34,392 nt of DNA. Origin: Parasporobacterium sp. (GTDB taxonomy: Bacteria > Bacillota > Clostridia > Lachnospirales > Lachnospiraceae). Positions 7,913 to 34,361 of the stretch are shown here, one piece after another. The position numbers were made by a program, and so were the translations under genes. Position 1 is the first letter of the stretch. Each line of letters begins with the position of its first letter. The stretch covers positions 32,001 to 66,392 of the forward strand of contig JAFWOB010000115.1 in NCBI GenBank assembly GCA_017510065.1. The letters run 5' to 3'. The notes below the pieces were generated by a model that had not been told where the DNA came from, made no database searches, and saw only the letters and a program-made list of their open reading frames with translations.

Positions 7913-7987
7913 CGGGGTGTAGCTCAGTTTGGCTAGAGCGCTTGATTTGGGATCAAGAGGCCGCAGGTTCAAGTCCTGTCACCCCGA
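7913..7987 (+). tRNA. tRNA-Pro (anticodon TGG)
   Basis: Acceptor CGGGGTG (7913-7919) pairs with CACCCCG (7980-7986), discriminator A7987. The anticodon loop TTTGGGA between CTTGA and TCAAG gives TGG. First gene of the array; CCA is not encoded. Confidence 0.97.
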
Positions 7988-8032
7988 TTCCAAAGAGAGG
8001 CAATAGCTAAGGACGCAAGTGGTTTTGATCAT

Positions 8033-8103
8033 GCGGGTGTAGTTCAATGGTAGAACACCAGCCTTCCAAGCTGGACACGTGGGTTCGATTCCCATCACCC
8101 GCT
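8033..8103 (+). tRNA. tRNA-Gly (anticodon TCC)
   Basis: Acceptor GCGGGTG (8033-8039) pairs with CACCCGC (8096-8102), with discriminator U as usual for bacterial tRNA-Gly. The anticodon loop CTTCCAA between CCAGC and GCTGG gives TCC. CCA is not encoded. Confidence 0.97.
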
Positions 8104-8137
8104 TTTGATTTGCCAAATTGGCAGATTGGATGCATTA

Positions 8138-8211
<74 letters not shown>

Positions 8212-8249
8212 TTGGGCGGCAGGAAGGTTACAGGCACGCTTGATGATAT

Positions 8250-8324
8250 GGTGGATATGGCGCAGTTGGCTAGCGCGCCAGATTGTGGCTCTGGAGGCCA
8301 AGGGTTCGAGTCCCTTTATCCACC
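8250..8324 (+). tRNA. tRNA-His (anticodon GTG)
   Basis: Acceptor GTGGATA (8251-8257) pairs with TATCCAC (8317-8323). The extra G at 8250 faces C8324, the G-1:C73 identity pair of tRNA-His. The anticodon loop TTGTGGC between CCAGA and TCTGG gives GTG. CCA is not encoded. Confidence 0.97.
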
Positions 8325-8337
8325 CTTTCCTTTTTAA

Positions 8338-8409
8338 AGGGCTATCGCCAAGCGGTAAGGCACAGGACTTTGACTCCTGCATTCGCTGGTTCGAATCCAG
8401 CTAGCCCTG
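8338..8409 (+). tRNA. tRNA-Gln (anticodon TTG)
   Basis: Acceptor AGGGCTA (8338-8344) pairs with TAGCCCT (8402-8408), discriminator G8409. The anticodon loop CTTTGAC between CAGGA and TCCTG gives TTG. CCA is not encoded. Confidence 0.97.
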
Positions 8410-8416
8410 TTTGAAT

Positions 8417-8489
8417 GGGCCAATAGCTCAGGTGGTAGAGCACTTGACTTTTAATCAAGTTGTCCGGGGTTCGAGTCCCCGATGGCTCA
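8417..8489 (+). tRNA. tRNA-Lys (anticodon TTT)
   Basis: The anticodon loop CTTTTAA between CTTGA and TCAAG gives TTT; the T arm CGGGG-TTCGAGT-CCCCG is perfect. The acceptor GGGCCAA (8417-8423) faces ATGGCTC (8482-8488) with a G-U at 2:71 and an A-A mismatch at 7:66, which is unusual. Discriminator A8489. Last tRNA of the array; CCA is not encoded. Confidence 0.95.
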
Positions 8490-8566: not shown

Positions 8567-8916
8567 TCGAGCAGGCTGAATGGTCGCGCTGTGCGTATGC
8601 ATGCATGCGCAGGTGAGGAAAGTCCGGGCTTCACAGGGCAGGATGCCAGATAACGTCTGGCGGGAGCGATCCCAGGACAAGTGCAACAGAAAGGATACCG
8701 CCCGCAAGGGTAAGGGTGAAATGGCAGTGTAAGAGACTACCGGTCCGACGGTAACGCCGGATGCAATGTAAACTCCATCCGAAGCAAGACCAAACAGATG
8801 GCGCTGAGGCGGCCCGCTTAGCCATCGGGTAGGTTGCGAAGAGACGACTGGTGACAGCCGTACAAGATAGATGACCGTTTTCAATGACAGAACCCGGCTT
8901 ACAGGCCTGCTCGACT
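8567..8916 (+). ncRNA. rnpB: RNase P RNA
   Basis: Catalytic RNA of RNase P, which removes tRNA 5' leaders. The ends pair as the P1 helix: TCGAGCAGGC (8567-8576) with GCCTGCTCGA (8905-8914). The universally conserved GAGGAAAGTCC lies at 8615-8625, and the 3' element AGAACCCGGCTTACAGGCC at 8889-8907. An internal ACAGAAAGGATACCGCC stretch also matches the conserved core, and the order and size (about 350 nt) suggest the ancestral A type used by Clostridia. The type assignment rests on pattern recognition, not a covariance model. The 3' end is approximate. No hairpin terminator follows; only a short T stretch at 8916-8919 and small hairpins at 8920-8955. Confidence 0.95.
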
Positions 8917-9002
8917 TTTCTGATCTTATCAGGAGCTTGATGAGAAGCATCTTAAGAAACCACAAGCCAGAATAAAGGGCGATTAACACGGAGGATGTAT
9001 CC

Positions 9003-23295: not shown

Positions 23296-25041
23296 ATGCT
23301 ATACCCGAATATGGAAGTCTGGAAAATCTATTCGAAAAAGGCAGATTTTGCCGGTATATCAAAGCAATTCCATATCAGCCCGCTTCTTGCCCGGATCCTC
23401 AGAAACCGGGATATTGAAGGAGCAGAGCAGATCCGGAAATATCTTCATGCAGATGTATCAGATCTGTATGATCCGTTTCTGATGAAGGGAATGGAAGAAG
23501 GAGTCCGGATTACTCAGAATGTCATACAAAACGGCGGACGCATCCGCATTATGGGAGATTATGATACGGATGGTGTCTGCGCCAGTTATATTCTGGAACG
23601 TTTCCTGACCGCTGCAGGAGCTCATGCAGATGTCAGACTCCCGGACCGTATGGCAGAAGGCTACGGAATGAGTACGGTTATGGTGGAAGAAGCGTATGCG
23701 GATAAGATTTCTCTGATCATCACCTGTGATAATGGGATCTCTTCCCTTGAAGCTGTGCATGCCGCCAGAAGATATGGGATCGATGTGATCATAACGGATC
23801 ATCATGAACCATCGGAGATGCTGCCGAATGCCAACGTGATCATAGATGCCAAGCAGAAAGACTGTACCTATCCCTTTCGGGAACTTTGCGGGGCAGGAGT
23901 AGCTTATAAATTCGTACAGGCATATAACAGACTGTTCCAGACCAGTCTGGAAGATTTGCTGGACGATCTACTTCAATATGCAGGGCTCGCTACGATTGCT
24001 GATATTGTGCCGCTGAAAGACGAAAACAGAATCCTGGCATCTGAAGGAATCAAAAGACTTCGGAATACAGACAGCCCAGGGCTGCTGGCCCTGGCACAGG
24101 AGCGAGGGATGGATATGGCCTGTATGGATTCCCGCTCTGTCGCTTACATCCTGTCGCCATGCATCAATTCCGCCGGAAGACTGAAAAACGCCGGACTTGC
24201 CTATGAACTGCTTTGTGAAAGAGATCCGCAGAACGCCCGTATGCTGGCAAAGGAACTGTCGGAACTGAATGAGCAGAGAAAGAACCTGACTTCTGCCTGT
24301 GAAAAGGAAGCCATCGAGATGATCCGGCAAAAAGAAGAAAACAACCCATCCAGGGACAGCATCCTGGTAGTCTTTCTTCCTGCAGCCCATGAAAGCATTG
24401 CCGGTATCCTGGCAGGACGACTGAAAGATGAATACAACAGACCGGCGATCGTGATCACCAGGTCGCAGAATGCTTTGAAAGGCTCGGGACGTTCCATAGA
24501 TTCTTACAATCTGATTGAAGGACTGAGAGAACATCCGGAATTATTTGAAAAATGCGGCGGACATGCCAAAGCATGCGGGTTTACCTTAAAGTCTGCAGGA
24601 ACAGACGAAGAAACCGTCAATCGGTTCGCACAGCGCATGAATGCCTCCTGTCTGCAGGATCTGGCTGATATGGAGCGGGTGATCTGGATCGATATGGCTC
24701 TTCCTTTTAAATACATAAATGAGACCTTTACAAAGGAACTGGAACTTCTGGAGCCTTTCGGAACAGATAATGAAAAACCGGTATTCGGGCAGAATAAGGT
24801 CACAATACTGAGAAGCAGTATTTTAGGCAGAAACCGGAATGTACTGAAAATGTCCCTGCAGGATGAAAGCGGGTTTGTGACAGACGGCATCATGTTCGGC
24901 TCGGAAGATTATATCCGTCAGCAGTATGAAAAACTGACGGATGGGAGTCTGATCTCAATTCTTTATTATCCGATGATCAATGAATTCCGGGGAAACTGCA
25001 CCCCGCAGGCGGTCATCTCCGCATTCCGTATCTTGGAATAA
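23296..25041 (+). CDS. recJ: Single-stranded-DNA-specific 5'-3' exonuclease RecJ
   Basis: 581 residues. DHH-family catalytic motifs are clear: GDYDTDGV (about 87-94), CDNG (144-147) and TDHHE (167-171), followed by the DHHA1 motif GGHAKACGF and an OB-like C-terminal domain. RecJ degrades single-stranded DNA 5' to 3' in recombination and mismatch repair. The start is uncertain: AAAGG lies only one base before the ATG at 23296, and the next in-frame ATG (23311, MEVWK) matches where homologues usually begin but has a poorly spaced site. It lies 14 bases after the antiporter stop, so they probably share a transcript. No terminator is visible; the next gene has its own promoter. Confidence 0.95.
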   Translation: MLYPNMEVWKIYSKKADFAGISKQFHISPLLARILRNRDIEGAEQIRKYLHADVSDLYDPFLMKGMEEGVRITQNVIQNGGRIRIMGDYDTDGVCASYILERFLTAAGAHADVRLPDRMAEGYGMSTVMVEEAYADKISLIITCDNGISSLEAVHAARRYGIDVIITDHHEPSEMLPNANVIIDAKQKDCTYPFRELCGAGVAYKFVQAYNRLFQTSLEDLLDDLLQYAGLATIADIVPLKDENRILASEGIKRLRNTDSPGLLALAQERGMDMACMDSRSVAYILSPCINSAGRLKNAGLAYELLCERDPQNARMLAKELSELNEQRKNLTSACEKEAIEMIRQKEENNPSRDSILVVFLPAAHESIAGILAGRLKDEYNRPAIVITRSQNALKGSGRSIDSYNLIEGLREHPELFEKCGGHAKACGFTLKSAGTDEETVNRFAQRMNASCLQDLADMERVIWIDMALPFKYINETFTKELELLEPFGTDNEKPVFGQNKVTILRSSILGRNRNVLKMSLQDESGFVTDGIMFGSEDYIRQQYEKLTDGSLISILYYPMINEFRGNCTPQAVISAFRILE

Positions 25042-25104: not shown

Positions 25105-25133
25105 TTGACCTTTAGGTTCAAGGATAGTAAAAT
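25105..25133 (+). promoter_or_regulatory. Promoter of the transglutaminase/dlt-like operon
   Basis: TTGACC (25105-25110) and TAAAAT (25128-25133) at 17 bases, 31 bases ahead of the first ATG. It is the only good promoter found before the lipoprotein gene, so it probably drives at least seven genes. Confidence 0.7.
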
Positions 25134-25164
25134 AACTTGAAAACATACACAGCAGGAAGTAGCT

Positions 25165-26688
25165 ATGCGTACCGGATCAGGTAAAAGATCTTCTTACAAC
25201 AGAACGACCGGAAGCAGAACTGCGAGGCTGTATTCCCGCAGAACTGCTAAAAAGATAAATAAAATATATTTGAACGAAGAAGCAAAGATCATTCGGACGG
25301 AAGAGTACTACGGTGAATCCAGGACAGCGGCCCGCAGTTTTAATGCCGATGAGTACAACGACTATTATGATGATCTTTCCAGAGACAGAAAGAGCGGAGC
25401 AAAAACTAAGATCTCGACGATCATTATCACGGCTTCGCTTATTATTGTGGTCCTGGCTCTTGTGATCGCAGGACTGGCTCTTTTGAAGCCAAAGGATGAT
25501 ATTGTTACGGATCTTGTAAAGGCTCCGAAGACTGAACCGGAATCTGTACCGGCATCCTCTATGTACGGGGATTCCGCTGCACCGGAGATATTCGGCGTAA
25601 TACCGATCGTCGTTTACGCTGGTAATTCTGTGGCTTACAAAGACGGCATTTACCTGGAAGATGACAACGATCCTTCTCCTGTTCTGGAGATCGAAAATGA
25701 AGGAGTGGATCTGACCACACCGGGCATTTACCCGGTCACTTACGTTGCAAGGGATGCGGACGGCAATATCACCAGGGAACTGACAACAGTAACGGTTCTT
25801 TCCGGCACGGATCTGATCAGCCAGGAAGAGATCTATAAACTGGCAGATCTGGTACTGGAAACGATCATTCCGGATGATACGATCTCCGATGAAATGAAGT
25901 GTCTGAAAGTCTATGAATATCTGCATGCCATCGGATATGTGGATGAGGTACATTCAGAGGACTGGATGCAGAACGCTTACTGGATGCTGACAAAAAGGGA
26001 AGGGGACTGCTTCTGCTATTATTCTGCTTCCAGATTGCTCCTTTCCAGGCTTGGCTATGAAGTGATGGAGGTTAGGAACAACAACAACTACGTCCATTAC
26101 TGGTGTCTGGTCAGTATCGACAAAGGCAACACCTGGTGGCACTTTGATCCATGCTGCTGGAGCTGGGGAGAAGACGGAATATTGTGTCTGGTTAGTGATA
26201 AATATCTGTCTGAGTTTACCAGAAGACATATTACTTCGGACGGACGGCTGATCCATGCATGGGATCTGGTTAATTATCCGTCTACCCCTGAAGAGGATTT
26301 CTGGACAGATGAAGACCGCGAGGTCATTTATGAAGGTGGCCTGATCGATGTGGAAGCACAGTTCGATCCGAATGACGCCAGATGGAACAATGAAGGCTGG
26401 GAGTCCTATCAGGTACCGAGTTATTGGGAAGTACCTGACTGGACAGCGTACGACTACTATTATGATGACACATCCTATGATCCGGCCTTGTATGAAGAAA
26501 CTTATGATGGAGACGGAGAAATAATTCCGGATGACATTGATGTTCCGGCAGAACCGGATATTCCGGCCGATCCCGGGACTTATGAAGAAGATGCTGCTCC
26601 CGAACCCATTGAAGAGATTCCATACGAAGTAGAATATATAGAGCAGGTTTTTGAAGATACAGAAACCGGTGTTGAAGGTGAAAATTGA
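25165..26688 (+). CDS. Membrane-anchored transglutaminase-like protein 1
   Basis: 507 residues. A long basic cytoplasmic N-terminus (1-84) precedes one transmembrane segment (about 85-107), an Ig-like DUF5011-type domain (about 130-202, ending GIYPVTYVARDADGN), and a transglutaminase-like domain with the papain-type triad C282 (EGDCFCYYSA), H311 (YVHYWCLV) and D328 (WHFDPCCW). The last 100 residues are a very acidic, Tyr- and Pro-rich tail (about 410-507). These domains in bacteria are usually proteases or peptide crosslinkers rather than true transglutaminases. AGGAAG Shine-Dalgarno. Its stop overlaps the next start. A tandem paralogue follows, and both precede a dlt-like cassette. The function of the pair is unknown. 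Confidence 0.88.
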   Translation: MRTGSGKRSSYNRTTGSRTARLYSRRTAKKINKIYLNEEAKIIRTEEYYGESRTAARSFNADEYNDYYDDLSRDRKSGAKTKISTIIITASLIIVVLALVIAGLALLKPKDDIVTDLVKAPKTEPESVPASSMYGDSAAPEIFGVIPIVVYAGNSVAYKDGIYLEDDNDPSPVLEIENEGVDLTTPGIYPVTYVARDADGNITRELTTVTVLSGTDLISQEEIYKLADLVLETIIPDDTISDEMKCLKVYEYLHAIGYVDEVHSEDWMQNAYWMLTKREGDCFCYYSASRLLLSRLGYEVMEVRNNNNYVHYWCLVSIDKGNTWWHFDPCCWSWGEDGILCLVSDKYLSEFTRRHITSDGRLIHAWDLVNYPSTPEEDFWTDEDREVIYEGGLIDVEAQFDPNDARWNNEGWESYQVPSYWEVPDWTAYDYYYDDTSYDPALYEETYDGDGEIIPDDIDVPAEPDIPADPGTYEEDAAPEPIEEIPYEVEYIEQVFEDTETGVEGEN

Positions 26689-27878
26689 GTACGAGTGAGA
26701 ATACCCAGCTGAATGAAATATACAGACAGAGGAAACTGTTCCGGAATGACAGAAGACGCACTATGAGATTTATTTCCGCGTTTGCTGTGATGCTGGTCCT
26801 TTTAGGCGCGGTGATCGCGGTGGCAGGTCTTCTTTATATTGTTAAATATTCTCCTGATCATGACCTGATCGTACTGCGGGACAGGAAACCCCCTGTGGCG
26901 TCTGTGCATGACGCCGTTTCTGCAAACGGAAAAGTCTACACCATAGAAGAGTTTGCAGACACCGTCAGCGACATTTCAGACGTTCGAATGAGCTATATCA
27001 AAGAACCGGATTATGACAAGGACGGCATCCAGGATATCGTCATACGTTTTACAGACGAAGCAGGCAATTATACAGATAAAAGTCTGAAGCTGGAAGTGTA
27101 TCATGATACTTCGGCTCCGGTTATTTATGTGGATGAGGACATCTACGTGTTCTGGAATGATGCAATCTCTTATAAAAGCTTCGCTGAAGTGGAAGACGAT
27201 TATGACGAAGATCTGGAACTTGAGATCGACAACAGTGAAGTGGATGTGACAAAGATCGGAACCTATCCGGTTATATACAGTGCAACAGACAGTGTCGGAA
27301 ATACCACCAGTAAAACGGTTTACATTCATGTTATGGAACCGGATTCGGATGAGTATTACCTGATGAAGGCAAATGAACTATGTGATATCATCATCTCTCA
27401 GATCACCTATGACGGCATGGATGATCTCCACAAAGTATGGGCAGTTTACAATTATGTCCGGGAGATTCCTTATGTCCTGACGGATTATACCAGAAACTAT
27501 ATCCGGGAAGGCTATAAGATGCTGAGTGAATATCGCGGAGACTGTTACGGCAGCTATGCTTCTGTCAAACTTCTGCTGGACCGGCTGGGGATCATGAATA
27601 TGCCGATCCAGACAGATGAAACTTATACCAGGCATTTCTGGAACCTTGTCTCCCTGGATGGCGGCAACACCTGGTATCATGTGGATGCCACCAACTGGAC
27701 GGAGTGGAGTCAGAGGCCTAATATGTGCATGATCAGCGATGGACGGCTGGATGAGATCTCAGCACAGCACGGGGGGACACATTACCATATCAAGTCTGAT
27801 TATCCTGCAACCCCGTATAACAGTATGCCGGTGCCGGAGGATATTTCCGCGCAGTACGGTGTGTATGACTGGAGCTGA
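26685..27878 (+). CDS. Membrane-anchored transglutaminase-like protein 2
   Basis: 397 residues from a TTG start at 26685, chosen because AAGGTG lies 5 bases upstream and the TTGA overlaps the preceding stop; the next in-frame ATG (26763) has no Shine-Dalgarno and would remove part of the basic tail before the membrane anchor. Layout parallels the upstream gene: short basic N-terminus, transmembrane segment (about 28-52), two beta-rich Ig-like repeats (about 70-140 and 145-217, the second of DUF5011 type) and a transglutaminase-like domain with C287 (RGDCYGSYA), H317 (RHFWNLV) and D334 (YHVDATNW). It lacks the long acidic tail of its partner. Likely arose by tandem duplication and diverged. 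Confidence 0.85.
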   Translation: MSTSENTQLNEIYRQRKLFRNDRRRTMRFISAFAVMLVLLGAVIAVAGLLYIVKYSPDHDLIVLRDRKPPVASVHDAVSANGKVYTIEEFADTVSDISDVRMSYIKEPDYDKDGIQDIVIRFTDEAGNYTDKSLKLEVYHDTSAPVIYVDEDIYVFWNDAISYKSFAEVEDDYDEDLELEIDNSEVDVTKIGTYPVIYSATDSVGNTTSKTVYIHVMEPDSDEYYLMKANELCDIIISQITYDGMDDLHKVWAVYNYVREIPYVLTDYTRNYIREGYKMLSEYRGDCYGSYASVKLLLDRLGIMNMPIQTDETYTRHFWNLVSLDGGNTWYHVDATNWTEWSQRPNMCMISDGRLDEISAQHGGTHYHIKSDYPATPYNSMPVPEDISAQYGVYDWS

Positions 27879-27920
27879 TAATGGGTTGATGCCTACAGAA
27901 GGCAGAGCAGGAGGGCAGGA

Positions 27921-28652
27921 ATGGTAAACGGTAAAAAAGTACTTGGCGTGATCGGGGGCATGGGCCCCATCGCGACATCTTTTTTTATGGAACTGGTGAT
28001 CAAGATGACGGACGCTGCCACCGATCAGGATCATCTGGATATGATCATCTACAATATTCCATCTATCCCGGACAGGACTTCCTATATTCTGGACCATACC
28101 AGGAAAAGTCCGCTGCCGGTGATTCTTGACATTGCGGAGAAGCTGGAAGAACAGGGCGTAGAGTTTCTGGCCATGCCCTGCTGCACGGCACACTATTTCC
28201 AGGAAGAACTTGAGCAGTCCCTTCATAAACCCTTTGTGAATATCATACGGGCAACCGTTCACTATCTGAAGGAGCGGGGAATTACAAAGGTCGGGGTCAT
28301 GGCAACAGACGGCACCATGAGTACCGGGCTGTTCCGAAAAGAACTGGAAGAAAACGGCATGCAGATCGTCTGTCCCTCTCCGGAGCGGCAGAAAGATGTG
28401 ATGCATGTGATCTATCAGAATGTAAAGGCAAACCGTCCGGTAGAGATGGACAGGTTCCGCGCTGTTGGCGATGAACTGAAAGCAAACGGAGCGGAAGCGA
28501 TCATCCTGGGATGCACGGAACTGTCCCTGGTGAAGCGTGACTATGATATCGGACCGGGATATATAGACGCTATGGAGGTTCTTGCCCAACAGTCCCTGAT
28601 CTCATGCGGATCTGTGCTGAAAGAGGAATACAAAGAACTTATTACAGTATAA
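27921..28652 (+). CDS. Aspartate/glutamate racemase family enzyme
   Basis: 243 residues, the usual size for the two-cysteine, cofactor-independent amino-acid racemases (Asp/Glu racemase, YgeA/RacX type). N-terminal GVIGGMGPIAT binds the substrate carboxylate; the catalytic cysteines are C87 in MPCCTAH (usually MPCNTAH; here the Asn is a Cys) and C198 in LGCTELSLV. It interconverts L- and D-amino acids in the cytoplasm; the substrate (Asp, Glu or a broader range) is not deducible. AGGAGG Shine-Dalgarno. It sits between the transglutaminase pair and the adenylation enzyme, and could supply the D-amino acid that the latter activates (inference). The stop is 19 bases from the next start. Confidence 0.9.
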   Translation: MVNGKKVLGVIGGMGPIATSFFMELVIKMTDAATDQDHLDMIIYNIPSIPDRTSYILDHTRKSPLPVILDIAEKLEEQGVEFLAMPCCTAHYFQEELEQSLHKPFVNIIRATVHYLKERGITKVGVMATDGTMSTGLFRKELEENGMQIVCPSPERQKDVMHVIYQNVKANRPVEMDRFRAVGDELKANGAEAIILGCTELSLVKRDYDIGPGYIDAMEVLAQQSLISCGSVLKEEYKELITV

Positions 28653-28671
28653 TTTTAATGGAGTAATTATC

Positions 28672-30189
28672 ATGCAGTACACCAATATTTTGCAGTATCT
28701 GGAAGAAACCGTTCTGCAGGTACCGGATAAACCGGCATTCTGCGCACAGGACAGCACACTGACGTTTCGTCAGACATATGAGGCAGCCCGGGCGATCGGT
28801 TCTTTTCTGTATCAGAAGGGTTACTATAAAAAACCTGTTGTTGTTTTCATGAAAAAAACACCGGAAGCGATCGCTGCCTATCTGGGAGTGATCTATGCCG
28901 GCTGTTTTTATGTCGCCCTGGACGAAGAGATGCCGAAGCACAGGATCGAGCTGATCATCCAGACGGTGCAGGCAGGCGCAGTCATCTGTGATGAGACTAC
29001 AGGGGAAATGATCCGGGAATACGGTTTTAACGGTGAAGTCTGTCAGTACAGCCAGGTAAGCCGGAACGGGATCGATGAAGCATCACTCGGCAAAGTGCGT
29101 GATGCTCAGACAGATATCGATCCTATTTACGCAGTTTTCACTTCAGGTTCTACAGGTGTGCCCAAGGGTGTGCTGGCCTGTCACAGGTCTGTGATCGACT
29201 ATATTGAAAATCTGTCGGAAGTCCTTCAGTTTGATTCGGAAACGGTATACGGCAATCAGGCACCGTTTTATTTTGACGCTGCACTGAAAGAGATCGTACC
29301 TACTATGAAATTCGGTGCCACTACGTATATTATTCCGAAATCCCTGTTTATGTTCCCGATCAAGCTTGTGGAATTCCTGAATGAACATAAGATCAACACC
29401 ATCTGCTGGGCAGCATCTGCCCTGACGATCGTTTCCTCCTTCCGGACATTTGAGAAAATCCGGCCGGAATATATCAAACGTGTTGTATTCGTGGGAGAAG
29501 TCTTTCCGATCAAACAGCTGAACATGTGGAAGGAAGTCCTGCCGGACGCGCTGTATGTCAATCTTTACGGACCGACGGAAACAACAGGAGTATGCTGCTA
29601 TTATAAAGTTGACCGGGAATTTGCGCTGGATGAGACTCTTCCTGTAGGAAGACCGTTTCACAACACCTCCATTCTTCTTTTGAATGATGACCTTACAGAA
29701 ACGCCTTTCGGCGAGGTAGGTGAGATCTGCGTAAAGGGAACCTGTCTGACTCTCGGATACTACAACAATCCGGAGAAGACCAGGGAGGCATTCATCCAGA
29801 ACCCCCTGAACGACATGTATCCGGAGACCATTTACAAAACAGGAGATCTCGGACGATACAATGAACGGGGAGAACTGTGCTATGTTTCCCGCAAGGACTA
29901 TCAGATCAAACATATGGGGCACCGCATTGAACTGGGCGAGATTGAAGTCGTTGTGAATATGCATAAAGGGATCCGGACAAATTGCTGTATATTTGATGAC
30001 ATTAAGAAGAAAATCGTGTTATACTATGTCGGCGATGCAACGAGGGCGGAAGTGGCGGAATTCACCAAGGAAAAACTTCCCAGATATATGTTCCCGAATG
30101 TGATTGTCCAATTGGAGAATATGCCCTATACTGCTAACGGAAAGATCGACAGAGTCTCATTGAAAAATAAATATAACGAGGAAAAATAA
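28672..30189 (+). CDS. DltA-like amino-acid adenylation enzyme (carrier-protein ligase)
   Basis: 505 residues, length of DltA. ANL-superfamily motifs: ATP loop FTSGSTGVPKG (156-166), NQAPFYFD with D212 matching the DltA Asp that holds the substrate amino group, NLYGPTETT (297-305), YKTGDLGRY (389-396) and the catalytic Lys in NGKIDR (K491). It activates an amino acid with ATP and loads it on the carrier protein encoded next. DltA proteins carry a Cys in the motif FCGE, held to select D-alanine; here the motif reads FVGE with V274. Substrate may therefore differ from D-Ala. The stop abuts the carrier-protein start. I leave the symbol blank because dltA identity is uncertain. Confidence 0.88.
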   Translation: MQYTNILQYLEETVLQVPDKPAFCAQDSTLTFRQTYEAARAIGSFLYQKGYYKKPVVVFMKKTPEAIAAYLGVIYAGCFYVALDEEMPKHRIELIIQTVQAGAVICDETTGEMIREYGFNGEVCQYSQVSRNGIDEASLGKVRDAQTDIDPIYAVFTSGSTGVPKGVLACHRSVIDYIENLSEVLQFDSETVYGNQAPFYFDAALKEIVPTMKFGATTYIIPKSLFMFPIKLVEFLNEHKINTICWAASALTIVSSFRTFEKIRPEYIKRVVFVGEVFPIKQLNMWKEVLPDALYVNLYGPTETTGVCCYYKVDREFALDETLPVGRPFHNTSILLLNDDLTETPFGEVGEICVKGTCLTLGYYNNPEKTREAFIQNPLNDMYPETIYKTGDLGRYNERGELCYVSRKDYQIKHMGHRIELGEIEVVVNMHKGIRTNCCIFDDIKKKIVLYYVGDATRAEVAEFTKEKLPRYMFPNVIVQLENMPYTANGKIDRVSLKNKYNEEK

Positions 30190-30417
30190 ATGGAACAGTT
30201 ATTGGAAATTCTTGAAGGTTTACATCCCGAAGTGGACTTCGAACTTGCTGATGATCTGATCGACGGCAAGATCTTTGATTCTTTTGATATCGTTACCCTG
30301 GTAGCAGAGATCAATGCGGAATTCGATGTGGCAATTCCGGCAGAGGAACTGATCCCTGACAACTTCAATTCTGCGGAAGCAATCTGGGAACTGATTCAGA
30401 GACTGGACGAAGAATAA
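30190..30417 (+). CDS. DltC-like acyl carrier protein
   Basis: 75 residues, acidic, the size of DltC (D-alanyl carrier protein). The phosphopantetheine attachment Ser is S31 in GKIFDSFDIVTL. DltC and ACP usually have DS[LM] here; DSF is a variation seen in clostridial dlt-type carriers. It receives the activated amino acid from the upstream ligase and delivers it to the MBOAT. The ATG follows directly after the adenylation-enzyme stop, with GAGGAAAA as Shine-Dalgarno; the MBOAT begins 3 bases after its stop. Small and helical, it is a typical four-helix carrier. Confidence 0.88.
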   Translation: MEQLLEILEGLHPEVDFELADDLIDGKIFDSFDIVTLVAEINAEFDVAIPAEELIPDNFNSAEAIWELIQRLDEE

Positions 30418-30420
30418 AGA

Positions 30421-31989
30421 ATGTCCTTTACATCGATTGATTTTCTGGCATTTTTCGGAATACTGATCATCCTGTACTATGCACTGCCTAAAAAGATACA
30501 GTGGATAGTACTTCTTGTTGCCAGTTATACTTTTTATACCCTTGCAGGCCTGAAATATATAGGCTTTATTCTGTTTACCACCATCACAACCTATCTTGTG
30601 ACACGGTATATGGACGAGAATCTTCAGAGGCAGGATCTGTACCTGAAGAAGCATAAGACTGAGATGTCCAAAGAAGAGAAAAAAGCCTATAAAAAAGAGG
30701 TAAAATCCAGAAACCGTCTGTGGTTTGTGATCACTATTGTAGTGAATTTCGGAATCCTCTTTTTCTGTAAAGCCTGTCTGGTGGATCCTCTGCACAGCAT
30801 GAGCGGATCGGCGGTCTTTTCCTTCCTTTCCGTAGGGCTTCCATTCGGTATTTCCTTTTATATGTTCCAGTCTATGGGATATGTGATCGATGTATACAGG
30901 GGCAAGGCACAGGCAGAGCGTAATTTCTTCAGACTGGCATTGTTCGTGTCCTTCTTTCCTCAGCTTGTACAGGGCCCGATCAGTAAATGGGAGCAGCTCA
31001 AGGATTCCCTTTTTACACCGCATGCATTTGACCGCAGGCAGGTAGCATTTGGACTCCAGAGAGTCCTGTGGGGCTTTTTCAAAAAGCTGGTGATCGCAGA
31101 CCGGATCGCAGTAGCCATCGGAACGCTGAAAGGAACAGAGTATACCGGTGTTTCCTTCTTTGTTCTGACGGTATTTTATGCTGTGCAGATCTATGGCGAT
31201 TTTACCGGAGGAATCGATATTGCCATCGGTGTAGGAGAAACTCTGGGAGTTAAGATGCCGGAGAACTTCATTCGTCCGTTCTTCTCGAAAAACATTGCGG
31301 AGTACTGGCGTAGATGGCATATCTCCCTGAATGAATGGATGAAGAGCTATATCTTCTATCCAATCACGGTTTCCGGTCCTATGCTGAAGCTGGCACTGAA
31401 AACAAGAGCAAAACTGGGCCGTTTTGGTATGAGAATACCGGTCTATATCGGTTCTTTGCTGACCTGGCTGGGAACCGGCGTATGGCATGGCTTCAATTTC
31501 CATTTTATCCTGTGGGGACTGATCAACTGTGTTGTGATCGTGATCTCAGAAGAATTGAATCCGGCCTATGACAGATTCCACAATCGTTTTTCCTGGTCCA
31601 ACAAAAGAGGCTATGATGTGTTTCAGATCATCCGGATGTTTGTTCTGATGAATCTGATCAGGGCTACCGACCTGTTCAATGATGTCGGTGACTATTTCCG
31701 GCGGATAGGATCCCTGGCCTGGGAGTTCAATTTCCATGTGCTGTGGGATGGAACTATGATGAACCTCGGTCTTTCCGTAGCAGATTATATCATACTGATC
31801 TGCGGCATCATCATAATGTTCCTGGTGAGCTTTTTCAGCAGGGATGACGTGAGTTTCCGGGTGAAATTCCAAAAAGTTCCGAGAGTACTTCGCTATGTAC
31901 TGCTTTTCCTGCTGCTGCTGTCCGTGATCCTGTTCGGAAGCTACGGCATCGGCTATGATGCAAGCAGTTTTATTTACAACCAGTTCTGA
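30421..31989 (+). CDS. DltB-like MBOAT transferase
   Basis: 522 residues with about ten transmembrane segments and the MBOAT His residues H300 in EYWRRWHISLNEW and H356 in GTGVWHGFNFHF. A basic cytoplasmic loop (about 62-100) is larger than in DltB. DltB takes the aminoacyl group from the carrier protein and moves it across the membrane to a DltD-dependent acceptor. Gene order ligase-carrier-MBOAT-SGNH differs from the canonical dltABCD, in which the MBOAT precedes the carrier. It differs in sequence from the AlgI-type protein at 14421. No separate Shine-Dalgarno stands out, consistent with coupling to the carrier gene. Confidence 0.9.
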   Translation: MSFTSIDFLAFFGILIILYYALPKKIQWIVLLVASYTFYTLAGLKYIGFILFTTITTYLVTRYMDENLQRQDLYLKKHKTEMSKEEKKAYKKEVKSRNRLWFVITIVVNFGILFFCKACLVDPLHSMSGSAVFSFLSVGLPFGISFYMFQSMGYVIDVYRGKAQAERNFFRLALFVSFFPQLVQGPISKWEQLKDSLFTPHAFDRRQVAFGLQRVLWGFFKKLVIADRIAVAIGTLKGTEYTGVSFFVLTVFYAVQIYGDFTGGIDIAIGVGETLGVKMPENFIRPFFSKNIAEYWRRWHISLNEWMKSYIFYPITVSGPMLKLALKTRAKLGRFGMRIPVYIGSLLTWLGTGVWHGFNFHFILWGLINCVVIVISEELNPAYDRFHNRFSWSNKRGYDVFQIIRMFVLMNLIRATDLFNDVGDYFRRIGSLAWEFNFHVLWDGTMMNLGLSVADYIILICGIIIMFLVSFFSRDDVSFRVKFQKVPRVLRYVLLFLLLLSVILFGSYGIGYDASSFIYNQF

Positions 31990-31996
31990 TATTGAT

Positions 31997-33073
31997 ATGA
32001 AAAAGAAACTGATCCTCATTATTGTCATAACGGTATTGGCGGCAGCCGGACTTCTGTTCCTGGTGCAGGGACTTTTAATGCCCAAATTTATGTCGGAGAT
32101 CCCGGAAGGCGCCATGATCCAGGAGTATTATGATAATGCAGGCGGCAACGATGTGATCTTTATCAGCGATTGTGAAGTCTACGAAAATTTTTCTCCTGTA
32201 ACATTGTGGGAGGAGTACGGGATCACATCCTATATCAGGGGATCTGCCCAGCAGCTGATCTGGCAGTCTTATTACCTGATGGAAGAGACCTTCAAGTATG
32301 AAACGCCGGATATCATGATCTTTAATGTGTTGGAAATGAAATACAACACGCCTTCCGATACCGGTGCCTCCAGCCAGCGGGAAGCCTATAACCGAATGAC
32401 TCTGGACGGTATGCGCTGGTCATCCAGCAAATGGAATTCCATCTATGCTTCCATGACAAAAGAAGAAAGATCCAAGGACGGTGTATGGAGTTATATTTTC
32501 CCGATCCTGCGCTACCATGACCGTTGGTCGGAATTGTCAGGAGAAGATTTCCGGTATCTGTTCAGCAGGGATCAAATGACGGATAACGGATACCTGATGC
32601 AGGTCAAGGTCAATCCTGTCGGAGATGATTATCCGGTGATCCCGCTTGTGGATTATTCCTTCGGGGATAATGCCTACTATTATCTTGATAAAATGGTCGA
32701 GCTCTGTGAAGAGCACGGAACACAGCTGGTTCTTGTCAAGGCTCCGACCCTTTCTCCTATCTGGTATGATGAGTGGGAAGAGCAGATGGAACAGTATGCA
32801 CAGGAGCACGGGCTTTTATATTTCAATTTTCTGGAAAAAATTGATGAGATCGGGATTGACTGGAATACGGATACTTATGACCAGGGCCTGCACCTGAATG
32901 TTTACGGCGCTGAAAAGCTCTCCCGTTACTTTGGAAAGATCCTGTCGGAAGAACTTGGCGTAAAGGATCACAGAGGGGAAGAAGAGACTGCCCGGAAGTG
33001 GGAAGAAAAATGTGAAACTTATATGAACCGCAAAGAAAGACTTGAAAAAGAACTGACAAACATAGTAGAATGA
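31997..33073 (+). CDS. DltD-like SGNH-fold protein with SDCE in place of the usual GSSx
   Basis: 358 residues from the ATG at 31997; an ATG pair at 31955 would overlap the MBOAT by 35 bases and has no better ribosome site. N-terminal membrane segment (about 5-27), then an outward SGNH-like domain. The first block reads IFISDCEVY (S57-D58-C59-E60), where comparable proteins read GSSH or GSSE, so Cys stands at the nucleophile position. The C-terminal DQGLHLN (D295, H299) supplies the Asp-His pair. A charged helical tail (about 330-358) ends the protein. DltD finishes aminoacyl transfer to teichoic acids. With Cys at the active site it may act by a thioester, or be a non-catalytic relative. No Shine-Dalgarno seen. 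Confidence 0.82.
   Translation: MKKKLILIIVITVLAAAGLLFLVQGLLMPKFMSEIPEGAMIQEYYDNAGGNDVIFISDCEVYENFSPVTLWEEYGITSYIRGSAQQLIWQSYYLMEETFKYETPDIMIFNVLEMKYNTPSDTGASSQREAYNRMTLDGMRWSSSKWNSIYASMTKEERSKDGVWSYIFPILRYHDRWSELSGEDFRYLFSRDQMTDNGYLMQVKVNPVGDDYPVIPLVDYSFGDNAYYYLDKMVELCEEHGTQLVLVKAPTLSPIWYDEWEEQMEQYAQEHGLLYFNFLEKIDEIGIDWNTDTYDQGLHLNVYGAEKLSRYFGKILSEELGVKDHRGEEETARKWEEKCETYMNRKERLEKELTNIVE
33042..33071 (+). promoter_or_regulatory. Candidate internal promoter for the lipoprotein gene
   Basis: TTGAAA (33042-33047) and TAGAAT (33066-33071) are 18 bases apart at the end of the DltD-like gene. A GGTC-TGCG-GACC hairpin lies just behind it. Plausible but not decisive. Confidence 0.4.
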
Positions 33074-33127
33074 CCATTGCGGTCTGCGGACCATAAATAG
33101 TAATAGATCCTGAAGGAGACATTAGAT

Positions 33128-33703
33128 ATGAAAAAAATGATTTGTTTACTGATCGCAGCAGTTTTAGCGGCAGGAATGCTGACAGCCTGCGGTTCAGGCG
33201 ATAACAGCAGTAAAAAAGATGACCAGGCGACTACTGTCGCTGCTGCAACTGCAGATACGGCACAGACAGTTGAAGAGAGTGCAGCAGCCCAGGAAGCACA
33301 GTCGGATAGATTCACCTTTACGTACAAAGGGACTCCGATCGCTATGAAGGCTGAAGCAGCTCCGATCTGTGAGGCTCTGGGCGATGCAAAGAGCTATACA
33401 GAGGAAACAAGCTGTGCGTTTGATGGTCTGGATAAGAACTTTACTTATACCAGCTTTATCATGACCACCTATCCGGATGGTGACAAGGACAGAGTCAATT
33501 CCCTGACACTGCTGGATGATACTGTTTCTACTGCAGATAAGATCAGTATTGGCGATTCCAAGGAAAAAGTGGAAGAAGTATACGGTGCCGACAGCTTTAA
33601 CGGCGTCAATGCCTATATCCTGACGGAAGGAGATGCACAGCTTACCGTGATCATCGACGGCGACAAAGTATCTTCCATCCAGTATACGGCAGTGTTTGAG
33701 TAA
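33128..33703 (+). CDS. Small lipoprotein of unknown function
   Basis: 191 residues. A clear lipoprotein signal peptide ends in the lipobox LTAC (lipidated Cys at residue 21), followed by a Ser/Lys/Asp/Ala-rich linker (about 22-65) and a compact globular domain (about 66-191). That domain repeats the motif of small calcium-independent surface lipoproteins in Firmicutes, ending in IIDGDKVSSIQYTAVFE, but I cannot name a family. AAGGAG lies 10 bases before the ATG. It follows the DltD-like gene by 54 bases and precedes the operon terminator, so it probably belongs to the surface-modification operon, or is driven by the internal promoter at 33042-33071. Confidence 0.85.
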   Translation: MKKMICLLIAAVLAAGMLTACGSGDNSSKKDDQATTVAAATADTAQTVEESAAAQEAQSDRFTFTYKGTPIAMKAEAAPICEALGDAKSYTEETSCAFDGLDKNFTYTSFIMTTYPDGDKDRVNSLTLLDDTVSTADKISIGDSKEKVEEVYGADSFNGVNAYILTEGDAQLTVIIDGDKVSSIQYTAVFE

Positions 33704-33727
33704 ACACATTTTTCAATTTTAACAAAT

Positions 33728-33759
33728 AAGCCAGCATGCAGATGTCATGCTGGCTTTTT
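33728..33759 (+). terminator. Terminator of the transglutaminase/dlt-like operon
   Basis: AAGCCAGCATG and CATGCTGGCTT pair perfectly over 11 bp around a 7-base loop and run into TTTTT. The IS element lies directly behind it. Confidence 0.92.
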
Positions 33760-33844
33760 CCTTGTATGGCGACGCCATCAAATAAACCACCTGCTATGCA
33801 GGTGGTCGGAAGAAAGCTTTAGCTTCAAGCAAAAAACCTCCAAT

Positions 33845-33899: not shown

Positions 33900-34361
33900 A
33901 TGGACAAAGGGAGTTTAGCACATACAACGTGGGAATGTAAGTACCACATCGTATTTGCGCCAAAATACAGGAGAAAGATAATCTATAACCAGATCCGAGC
34001 GGATGTGGGGCATATCCTCGGTGAATTATGCAAGAGGAAAGGGATCGAGATCATAGAAGCAGAAGCATGCCCGGACCACATTCACATGTTTGTGAGGATC
34101 CCGCCGAAATACAGTGTATCGGAGGTAATGGGTTATCTGAAGGGAAAAAGTTCGCTCATGATCTTCGAGCGGCATGCAAACCTGAAGTACAAGTATGGGA
34201 ACCGGCATTTCTGGTGTCGGGGATATTACGTAGATACAGTGGGTAAAAATGCGAAGAAGATCCAGGAATATATCCGCAACCAGCTCAAGGAAGATCTGGA
34301 GTACGACCAGATGACGCTCAAGGAATACTTCGACCCGTTTACGGGTGAGCCGGTAAAGTAG
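33900..34361 (+). CDS. tnpA: IS200/IS605 Y1 transposase TnpA
   Basis: 153 residues, full length. The HUH motif H60-I-H62 in CPDHIHMFVR holds the metal, and the catalytic Tyr is Y124 in IQEYIRNQ; NRHFWCRGYYVDTVG is the conserved stretch before it. Cuts and rejoins single-stranded DNA at the element ends, moving by a peel-and-paste mechanism often linked to the replication fork. Strong AAGGAGG Shine-Dalgarno after the leader hairpin. The open frame and intact residues suggest a functional enzyme. A 6-bp hairpin ACCCGT-TT-ACGGGT lies inside the 3' end of the gene (34333-34346). No tnpB is visible before the window ends. Confidence 0.96.
   Translation: MDKGSLAHTTWECKYHIVFAPKYRRKIIYNQIRADVGHILGELCKRKGIEIIEAEACPDHIHMFVRIPPKYSVSEVMGYLKGKSSLMIFERHANLKYKYGNRHFWCRGYYVDTVGKNAKKIQEYIRNQLKEDLEYDQMTLKEYFDPFTGEPVK

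Follow-up and report, generated by a model that had tools for sequence, protein, structure and literature searches.

A clade-specific Dlt-like gene cluster of Clostridia with a probable role in surface modification by D-aspartate

We analyzed a stretch of 34,392 nucleotides from Parasporobacterium sp. (Lachnospiraceae; GenBank assembly GCA_017510065.1, contig JAFWOB010000115.1, positions 32,001 to 66,392 of the forward strand), which is referred to here as the window. Eight genes located at 25165-33703 encode two transglutaminase-fold proteins (TGL1 and TGL2), an aspartate-racemase-type enzyme (RAC), an adenylation ligase (LIG), a carrier protein (ACP), an MBOAT acyltransferase, a DltD-like protein (DLTD-like) and a lipoprotein (LIPO). 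Judged by sequence, the eight genes are one conserved, clade-specific cluster distinct from dltABCD. We observed that the gene set recurs in conserved order and keeps its active-site residues, and that most cluster genomes without RAC carry a racemase elsewhere. With moderate confidence we propose that the cluster encodes a Dlt-like system of surface aminoacylation dedicated to D-aspartate (D-Asp) or a close derivative. An earlier sequence-only reading of this DNA had described an operon of eight genes of these classes; all eight are on the + strand at the positions it gave (Table 1) and the domain matches agree (Pfam Asp_Glu_race 157 bits for RAC, AMP-binding 214 for LIG, MBOAT 58, and PP-binding 23 for the carrier, with a cut-off of 20.8). 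That reading left the amino acid unnamed. Our results refine it in three respects: aspartate is the most likely amino acid, Cys stands at the Ser nucleophile position of the DLTD-like protein, and one branch of the clusters contains an asparagine synthase (AsnB).

We searched the proteins of 150 genomes of the same family and found 14 full-length relatives of LIG outside the window (53-63% identity) together with two fragments; below these relatives the identity fell to 49% and less. The alignment of these ligases was scanned against 84,980 genomes (one per species) and the best 80 of 579 confirmed candidates were kept; more such loci exist than these. The frequencies given here describe this close ligase clade, that is the 80 loci, the family relatives and the window. 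There were 95 loci in total including the window, 93 of them distinct (L111 is identical with L043, and L122 with L044). Residue counts per alignment row include the two duplicates, while the distinct proteins number 93 for LIG, 79 for DLTD-like, 74 for RAC and 87 for MBOAT. According to the record titles, the loci belong mostly to Lachnospiraceae, Oscillospiraceae and other Clostridia, and largely to metagenome-assembled genomes recovered from the guts of animals and from other anaerobic sources.

At least 4 kb upstream and at least 4.5 kb downstream of the ligase were available for 59 distinct loci. Among these, TGL was present in 56, RAC in 49, ACP in 57, MBOAT in 58, DLTD-like in 58 and LIPO in 57. 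All six partners were detected in 47/59 loci and all but RAC in 55/59. In 33/59 loci the genes stood side by side on a single strand in precisely the order TGL-RAC-LIG-ACP-MBOAT-DLTD-LIPO, with TGL directly before RAC, and the ligase orthologues examined were not located in ordinary dlt loci. At the level of sequence, neither of the outcomes that the sequence-only reading had named as refuting it was observed. Of the 93 distinct loci, 74 contain RAC, and in 64 of them it immediately precedes LIG; two or more TGL genes are present in 11/93, the window included. The median gaps between genes were 10-25 nt (47 exact-order loci of 101, a set in which duplicates and six sister loci were included). 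In rearranged loci (e.g. L044, L047, L108) the TGL, RAC and LIPO genes remain together. TGL is missing at L045, L051 and L133; L051 consists of the ligase alone, and its genome carries a cluster-type racemase near an MBOAT-like open reading frame (named by eye) on another contig. Outside the cluster the neighbours, which might have pointed to the acceptor polymer, were variable. No family occurred in more than 5/93 loci, except asparagine synthase (10 loci, one of them on the opposite strand) and a mixed family found at varying positions in 17 loci.

As a control we used 26 loci of sister ligases (36-49% identity), with no flank filter (six are shorter than 14.1 kb) and with thresholds of 150 bits for RAC and 60 bits for TGL, LIPO and AsnB. 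None of the four was found above threshold in any of the 26 loci; below it, L183 gave weak TGL matches of 19-41 bits and L181 a weak LIPO match of 20 bits. The same loci do have ACP (23/26), MBOAT (19/26) and a DLTD-like protein of at least 60 bits (10/26). As a yardstick we took five near-canonical dltA genes from the same class (501-549 bits to TIGR01734, themselves below its cut-off). No RAC, TGL or LIPO was present among their printed neighbours, and one of these loci (L195) gave a weak AsnB-like match of 26 bits. As the gene set was seen in tens of genomes but not next to sister ligases, the cluster is more than a chance neighbourhood, and the claim that it differs from standard dltABCD loci was borne out. 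In a FastTree phylogeny of 124 ligases, the 93 cluster ligases formed one group (support 0.55), next to which stood 16 sister ligases (support of the parent node 1.0). The five dltA tips were not monophyletic and were therefore not used as the root, which leaves the rooting uncertain. The literature that we searched for these gene combinations did not describe the cluster; most subscription journals were outside the coverage of this search.

The pocket of the ligase differs from that of DltA. Motifs were used to assign gramicidin synthetase numbers to its positions. The common code D-A-K-C-A-G-L-G-M-K was present in 85/95 rows, and place 239 was occupied by Lys in 94/95 rows and by Arg in one. 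In the five near-canonical DltA proteins the same place holds Met, Ala or Ser. The window ligase has Val at places 299, 301 and 331. In the codes of nonribosomal peptide synthetases (NRPS), a pocket lysine would correspond to a carboxylate side chain and hence to an acidic substrate. The lysine lining the pocket suggests a substrate with such a side chain. The phosphopantetheine Ser of the carrier was found in 95/95 rows (two duplicates and four sister loci included), and the DltC model NF003464 scored 31 on the window carrier, with a cut-off of 68.

RAC passed TIGR00035 (224 bits, cut-off 93), and its nearest solved structure was the aspartate racemase of P. horikoshii (profile score 238 bits). 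The catalytic Cys pair was intact in 76/76 rows. The equivalent of Arg48 was present in 76/76 rows and that of Lys164 in 75/76, one being undetermined; these two residues belong to the Asp side-chain site of the P. horikoshii enzyme, whose Asn83 is replaced in most rows (see below). RAC is probably an aspartate-type racemase.

We compared the racemase content of genomes that have the cluster with and without RAC. The RAC-less group comprised 14 genomes, namely ten of the 59 flank-filtered loci and four with less flank. A racemase homologue was found elsewhere in 13/14 of them; 11 were intact at 170 bits or more and two were present as pieces only (G153, G155), while a twelfth hit (100 bits) looks like another paralogue. 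All 28 genomes with a cluster RAC had a single match (E 1e-15, 298-400 bits), which by position is the cluster's own. Intact second-site racemases were thus present in 11/14 RAC-less and 0/28 RAC-containing genomes (Fisher p = 8.5e-8, uncorrected for phylogeny and genome incompleteness; the assemblies were drafts chosen by us and cover 28 of the 74 RAC-containing loci). In 14 further RAC-containing genomes from the family search there was no second match of at least 170 bits, and two weak ones scored 112-118 bits. A racemase match above 200 bits was present in 13/133 family genomes without this ligase. Since nearly all RAC-less genomes carry a homologue elsewhere and the 28 RAC-containing ones have no second, we consider the racemase tied to the ligase cluster, as the sequence-only reading had supposed. 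The presence of either the cluster racemase or another one in nearly all cluster genomes compared is what would be expected if the cluster needs its product.

The later part of the predicted pathway resembles the acyl relay of Dlt systems. The catalytic His of MBOAT was present in 89/89 rows and its C-terminal F-x-Y-x-x-F motif in 85/87 distinct proteins; the two misses, L050 and L062, are open reading frames that reach the contig end. The DltB model TIGR04091 scored 136 on the window MBOAT (cut-off 375). One report states that the Tyr of this motif in DltX and PatA carries the acyl group to an SGNH partner (PMC12148441). The DLTD-like protein has an SGNH-type block I, in which we found G/S-D-C-E with Cys at the nucleophile position in 81/81 rows. 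In contrast, homologues beside sister ligases have G-x-S at this column in 16/17 cases (L167 was unaligned there), and GSSE is invariant in the DltD of the five dlt loci of the class (5/5). The relationship with DltD is distant: hhalign gave a probability of 27% over 50 columns, the GDSL/SGNH Pfam match of the window protein reached 22.6 bits (cut-off 32.9), and the search against solved structures gave no significant match (best E 0.019). The Ser-to-Cys change marks the clade and leads naturally to a predicted cysteinyl thioester on the DLTD-like protein.

Transglut_core (PF01841) reached 20.3 bits on TGL1 and 19.2 on TGL2 (cut-off 23), and the Ig-like match of TGL1 22.1 bits (cut-off 27). 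At E 0.01 both domains were matched in 30/30 aligned TGL proteins (best PF01841 1e-12). The Cys-His-Asp triad was intact in 82/82 rows (80 loci and both window proteins, one counted twice), and 69/80 proteins have a strongly hydrophobic stretch in their first 130 residues. Against solved structures the TGL profile matched Ig-like parts only and one weak transglutaminase-like entry (E 0.035). No Pfam family was over its cut-off in the window LIPO or in eight relatives, and a lipobox-like pattern was present in 62/73 LIPO proteins.

AsnB is absent from the window and lies inside nine distinct clusters, with the same orientation as the other genes. It immediately follows the DLTD-like gene in seven of them and the MBOAT gene in two, and in five the next gene is TGL. 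TIGR01536 scored 444 on the L122 protein (cut-off 267) and was matched by 10/10 rows (nine distinct); the N-terminus M1-C2-G3 was invariant, so Cys2 is present. These clusters fall within a 13-tip part of the ligase tree (support 0.56). On the simplest reading, AsnB would amidate Asp to Asn, acting on the free amino acid or on a later intermediate.

From these data we propose the following pathway. RAC would convert L-Asp to D-Asp. LIG would activate D-Asp with ATP, K206 pairing with the side-chain carboxylate, and would load it onto ACP. MBOAT would then carry the aminoacyl residue through the membrane to the Tyr in its own C-terminal FIYNQF motif, from which the DLTD-like protein would accept it on Cys as a thioester and hand it to a surface acceptor. 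Outside the cell, the TGL proteins and LIPO would work on the product or on the way it is attached, perhaps by forming or cleaving amides, and in the sub-lineage with asparagine synthase amidation to Asn is suggested. Everything in this scheme that concerns substrate, individual reactions, acceptor and TGL function is predicted. A bolder version seems to us rather unlikely: D-Asp, relayed through the ACP thioester, the MBOAT tyrosyl ester and the SGNH cysteinyl thioester, would end as an envelope amide, and the TGL proteins would link surface proteins or polymers covalently through D-Asp or D-Asn groups. In this version the reason for Cys would be that a thioester is well suited to acylating an amine.

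Several observations weigh against D-Asp as the substrate, or against RAC as its source, and they bear in part on the rival readings discussed below. The 16 sister ligases, whose code begins with D-V-K in all cases and ends in C-N-K, share the pocket lysine, yet they mostly sit with a pyridoxal phosphate (PLP) decarboxylase. The literature that we searched for NRPS codes contained no paper stating that a pocket lysine means an acidic substrate. The ligase pocket in AsnB clusters is the common one, L101 excepted. In the window ligase, V274 and V307 depart from the common Gly and Met. Finally, genome G065 (locus L048) has the cluster and zero racemase matches, and most cluster racemases carry a replaced Asn in the PCNT motif, which could mean a changed substrate.

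The same pathway might use D-glutamate, a reading that we regard as improbable. The pocket lysine recalls Glu-type NRPS codes, and RAC belongs to the Asp/Glu racemase superfamily. However, entries named glutamate racemase gave at most 52 bits with the RAC profile, far below the score of the aspartate racemase, and the asparagine synthase points to aspartate. Moreover, cells get D-Glu from MurI, and a dedicated racemase would be needless.

We give a similarly low probability to the view that LIG uses an L-amino acid and that the racemase feeds a peptidoglycan D-Asp side branch, being only co-regulated. Several racemases outside the clusters adjoin MurE-like and ATP-grasp-like genes (by eye); the MurE-like neighbours in L198 and L212 passed TIGR01085, the ATP-grasp-like ones matched weak models only, and one of the latter had no match among solved structures. 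AsnB-like genes (by eye) are near two background racemases (L197, L207). This context fits cell-wall D-Asp. RAC is also missing in 10/59 clusters, one of them that of G065. On the other hand, the position of RAC directly before LIG, its absence next to sister ligases, and the presence of a cluster racemase or another one in cluster genomes all speak against this view. The L048 ligase has Val at 301 and 331, like the window; a link between the V274/V307 pocket and loss of RAC was unsupported, as the window and L058 have RAC and L048 does not.

It is quite unlikely, in our judgement, that the cluster is a D-alanylation (dlt) operon of variant type that uses D-Ala, with the racemase and TGL genes as bystanders. 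The enzyme classes are those of Dlt, and DltA models were among the better matches of LIG. Nevertheless both missed their cut-offs by far (TIGR01734 261.8 bits, cut-off 559.85; NF003417 285.2, cut-off 476), the pocket lysine stands against Met, Ala or Ser in the five DltA proteins, and RAC, TGL and LIPO are conserved here, not found above threshold in the 26 sister loci and not present among the printed neighbours of the five dltA genes. A study of B. cereus DltA reports that Cys269 contributes to D-Ala selectivity (PMC4176424). The equivalent position is Val in the window (V274) and Gly, Ala or Val in cluster relatives. Because only two of the five near-canonical DltA proteins have Cys there (L192, L196) and the other three Val or Ile (L193-L195), this position taken by itself is a weak argument and is compatible with D-Ala. 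No DltA model was matched over its cut-off in the whole window genome, which holds three further DltA-like ligases. One of them, on contig C129 (locus L052), has Cys at the Cys269 position and the best DltA score among the ligases of this genome (290 bits, cut-off 560), and its locus is probably a better D-Ala candidate than the window cluster. We also noted that the C129 locus contains ACP, ligase, MBOAT and a DLTD-like protein with Ser, and no RAC or TGL. An ordinary dlt operon was rejected because of the model scores, the pocket lysine, the SGNH residue and the gene context.

A substrate such as D-cysteate or another acidic amino acid, with a CuyB-like racemase, also appears to be a long shot. 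The NCBIfam cysteate-racemase (CuyB) model NF052483 was passed by the window RAC, P0003 (219 bits, cut-off 190), and matched at E 0.001 by 24/24 cluster racemases scanned (for the other 23, E-values only). In 69/74 distinct cluster racemases the PCNT motif has Ile, Val, Met or Cys in place of its Asn; by rows, the Asn83 equivalent is replaced in 71/76, and it is Cys in the window. The Asn is kept in 13/13 background racemases. Against this reading, TIGR00035 scored as high on P0003 (224 bits), no sulfonate-type family was prominent among the recurrent neighbours (sulfonate genes were not searched by name), and the racemases elsewhere in RAC-less cluster genomes keep PCNT in 10/11 cases, some of them adjoining MurE-like genes. 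D-Asp or D-Asn remains our preferred substrate.

D-alanylation is the textbook route for aminoacylating surface polymers of Gram-positive bacteria, and the cluster shares with the Dlt pathway (DltA, DltB, DltC, DltD, DltX) an adenylation ligase, a carrier, the MBOAT His, the Tyr shuttle motif and an anchored SGNH-type partner. It differs in that its proteins are below the DltA, DltB and DltC model cut-offs, the ligase pocket is distinct, the SGNH-type protein has Cys instead of Ser and matches the DltD profile weakly, the shuttle motif is on the C-terminus of MBOAT itself, and RAC, TGL, LIPO and sometimes AsnB are added. Enterococci and lactococci supply D-Asp for peptidoglycan side branches through a racemase and an ATP-grasp ligase. 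That supply involves the same racemase superfamily and possibly an AsnB-like amidotransferase as a partner, whereas in the cluster adenylation and a carrier would take the place of the ATP-grasp ligase, which acts on a peptidoglycan precursor. Exosortase A-associated families were matched below cut-off by LIG (TIGR03098, ligase, 170 bits, cut-off 592), by the cluster AsnB (TIGR03108, amidotransferase, 354, cut-off 817) and by the partner of the sister clade (TIGR03099, decarboxylase, 207, cut-off 478); to our knowledge, exosortase A-associated gene sets contain no racemase or TGL genes. PatA/PatB acyltransferases likewise have FxYxxF at the MBOAT C-terminus and an SGNH-type partner (PMC12148441). 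In comparison with them, the donor here is presumably an aminoacyl carrier protein and not acetyl-CoA, and Cys replaces the Ser nucleophile.

The cluster suggests that anaerobic Clostridia, many of them from the gut, have diversified a Dlt-like machine into parallel pathways, each of which would pair a ligase pocket with its own amino-acid enzyme (a racemase here, a PLP decarboxylase in most sisters). Three predictions follow from it: the surface would carry a D-aspartyl modification, the exchange of Ser for Cys in an acyltransferase would create a thioester relay, and surface transglutaminase-fold enzymes would be connected with the pathway. Among the 16 D-V-K sister loci, a PLP decarboxylase-like open reading frame (by eye) directly follows the ligase in 12 (L056, L057, L168, L170, L173, L174, L175, L178, L180, L184, L185, L186). 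For L170 and L185 the PLP fold-III assignment was confirmed by Pfam, while the best NCBIfam models were below cut-off. These loci suggest a parallel pathway attaching a decarboxylated or differently made amino acid. Another sister group (L171, L176, L177, L181, L182) has Ser where an Asp normally binds the alpha-amino group (code S-M-T/L-Y, end D-I-K), and its ligases may activate a non-amino acid. The L167 ligase (code D-A-K-D-M-L-L-G-D-K), accompanied by MBOAT, DLTD-like and ACP and with no RAC or TGL match at its locus, may be a further acidic-substrate variant.

Table 1. Features of the gene cluster in the window (positions are those of the window).
Feature	Position	Strand	Residues and remarks
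Promoter-like site TTGACC-17-TAAAAT	25105..25133	+	10/12 matches; plausible only
TGL1, membrane-anchored, Ig-like and transglutaminase-fold domains	25165..26688	+	triad C282-H311-D328
TGL2, anchored transglutaminase-fold protein	26685..27878	+	triad C287-H317-D334
RAC, aspartate-racemase-type enzyme	27921..28652	+	two catalytic Cys; TIGR00035
LIG, DltA/NRPS-type adenylation ligase	28672..30189	+	pocket D202 A203 K206 C245 V272 V274 L298 G306 V307 K491
ACP, carrier protein	30190..30417	+	phosphopantetheine serine in FDSFD
MBOAT acyltransferase	30421..31989	+	catalytic His; C-terminal FIYNQF acyl-shuttle motif
DLTD-like SGNH-type membrane protein	31997..33073	+	Cys in SDCE (GDCE in relatives) replaces Ser nucleophile
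LIPO, lipoprotein, conserved cluster member	33128..33703	+	in 57/59 loci; no Pfam match
Intrinsic terminator-like hairpin	33728..33756	+	11-pair stem, 6 G-C, T run at end

The genes are closely spaced, as had been claimed, with distances from a 4-nt overlap (TGL1/TGL2) up to 54 nt when the DLTD-like start is taken as 31997. This start is likelier than 31955, the one assumed before, as several orthologues begin near it. The start codon of TGL2 would be TTG. One promoter and one terminator had been proposed to enclose the genes. The terminator-like hairpin is present; the promoter is merely plausible, because promoter-like sites in the region (22, shuffle mean 16.2, sd 4.1) are not clearly enriched. 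At the TGL2/RAC junction (27878-27921) the site listing shows neither a terminator-like nor a promoter-like site. A recJ-like gene (named by eye) ends at 25041, upstream of TGL1. Sulfatase-type (PF00884) and PF04464 matches are present in the window genome without a tie to the cluster. An IS200-like Y1 transposase gene (PF01797, 143 bits) is located directly downstream of the operon at 33900-34361, with a hairpin at 33785-33807 in between. Elsewhere in the window, six tRNA genes at 7913-8489 are followed by RNase P RNA at 8568-8917.

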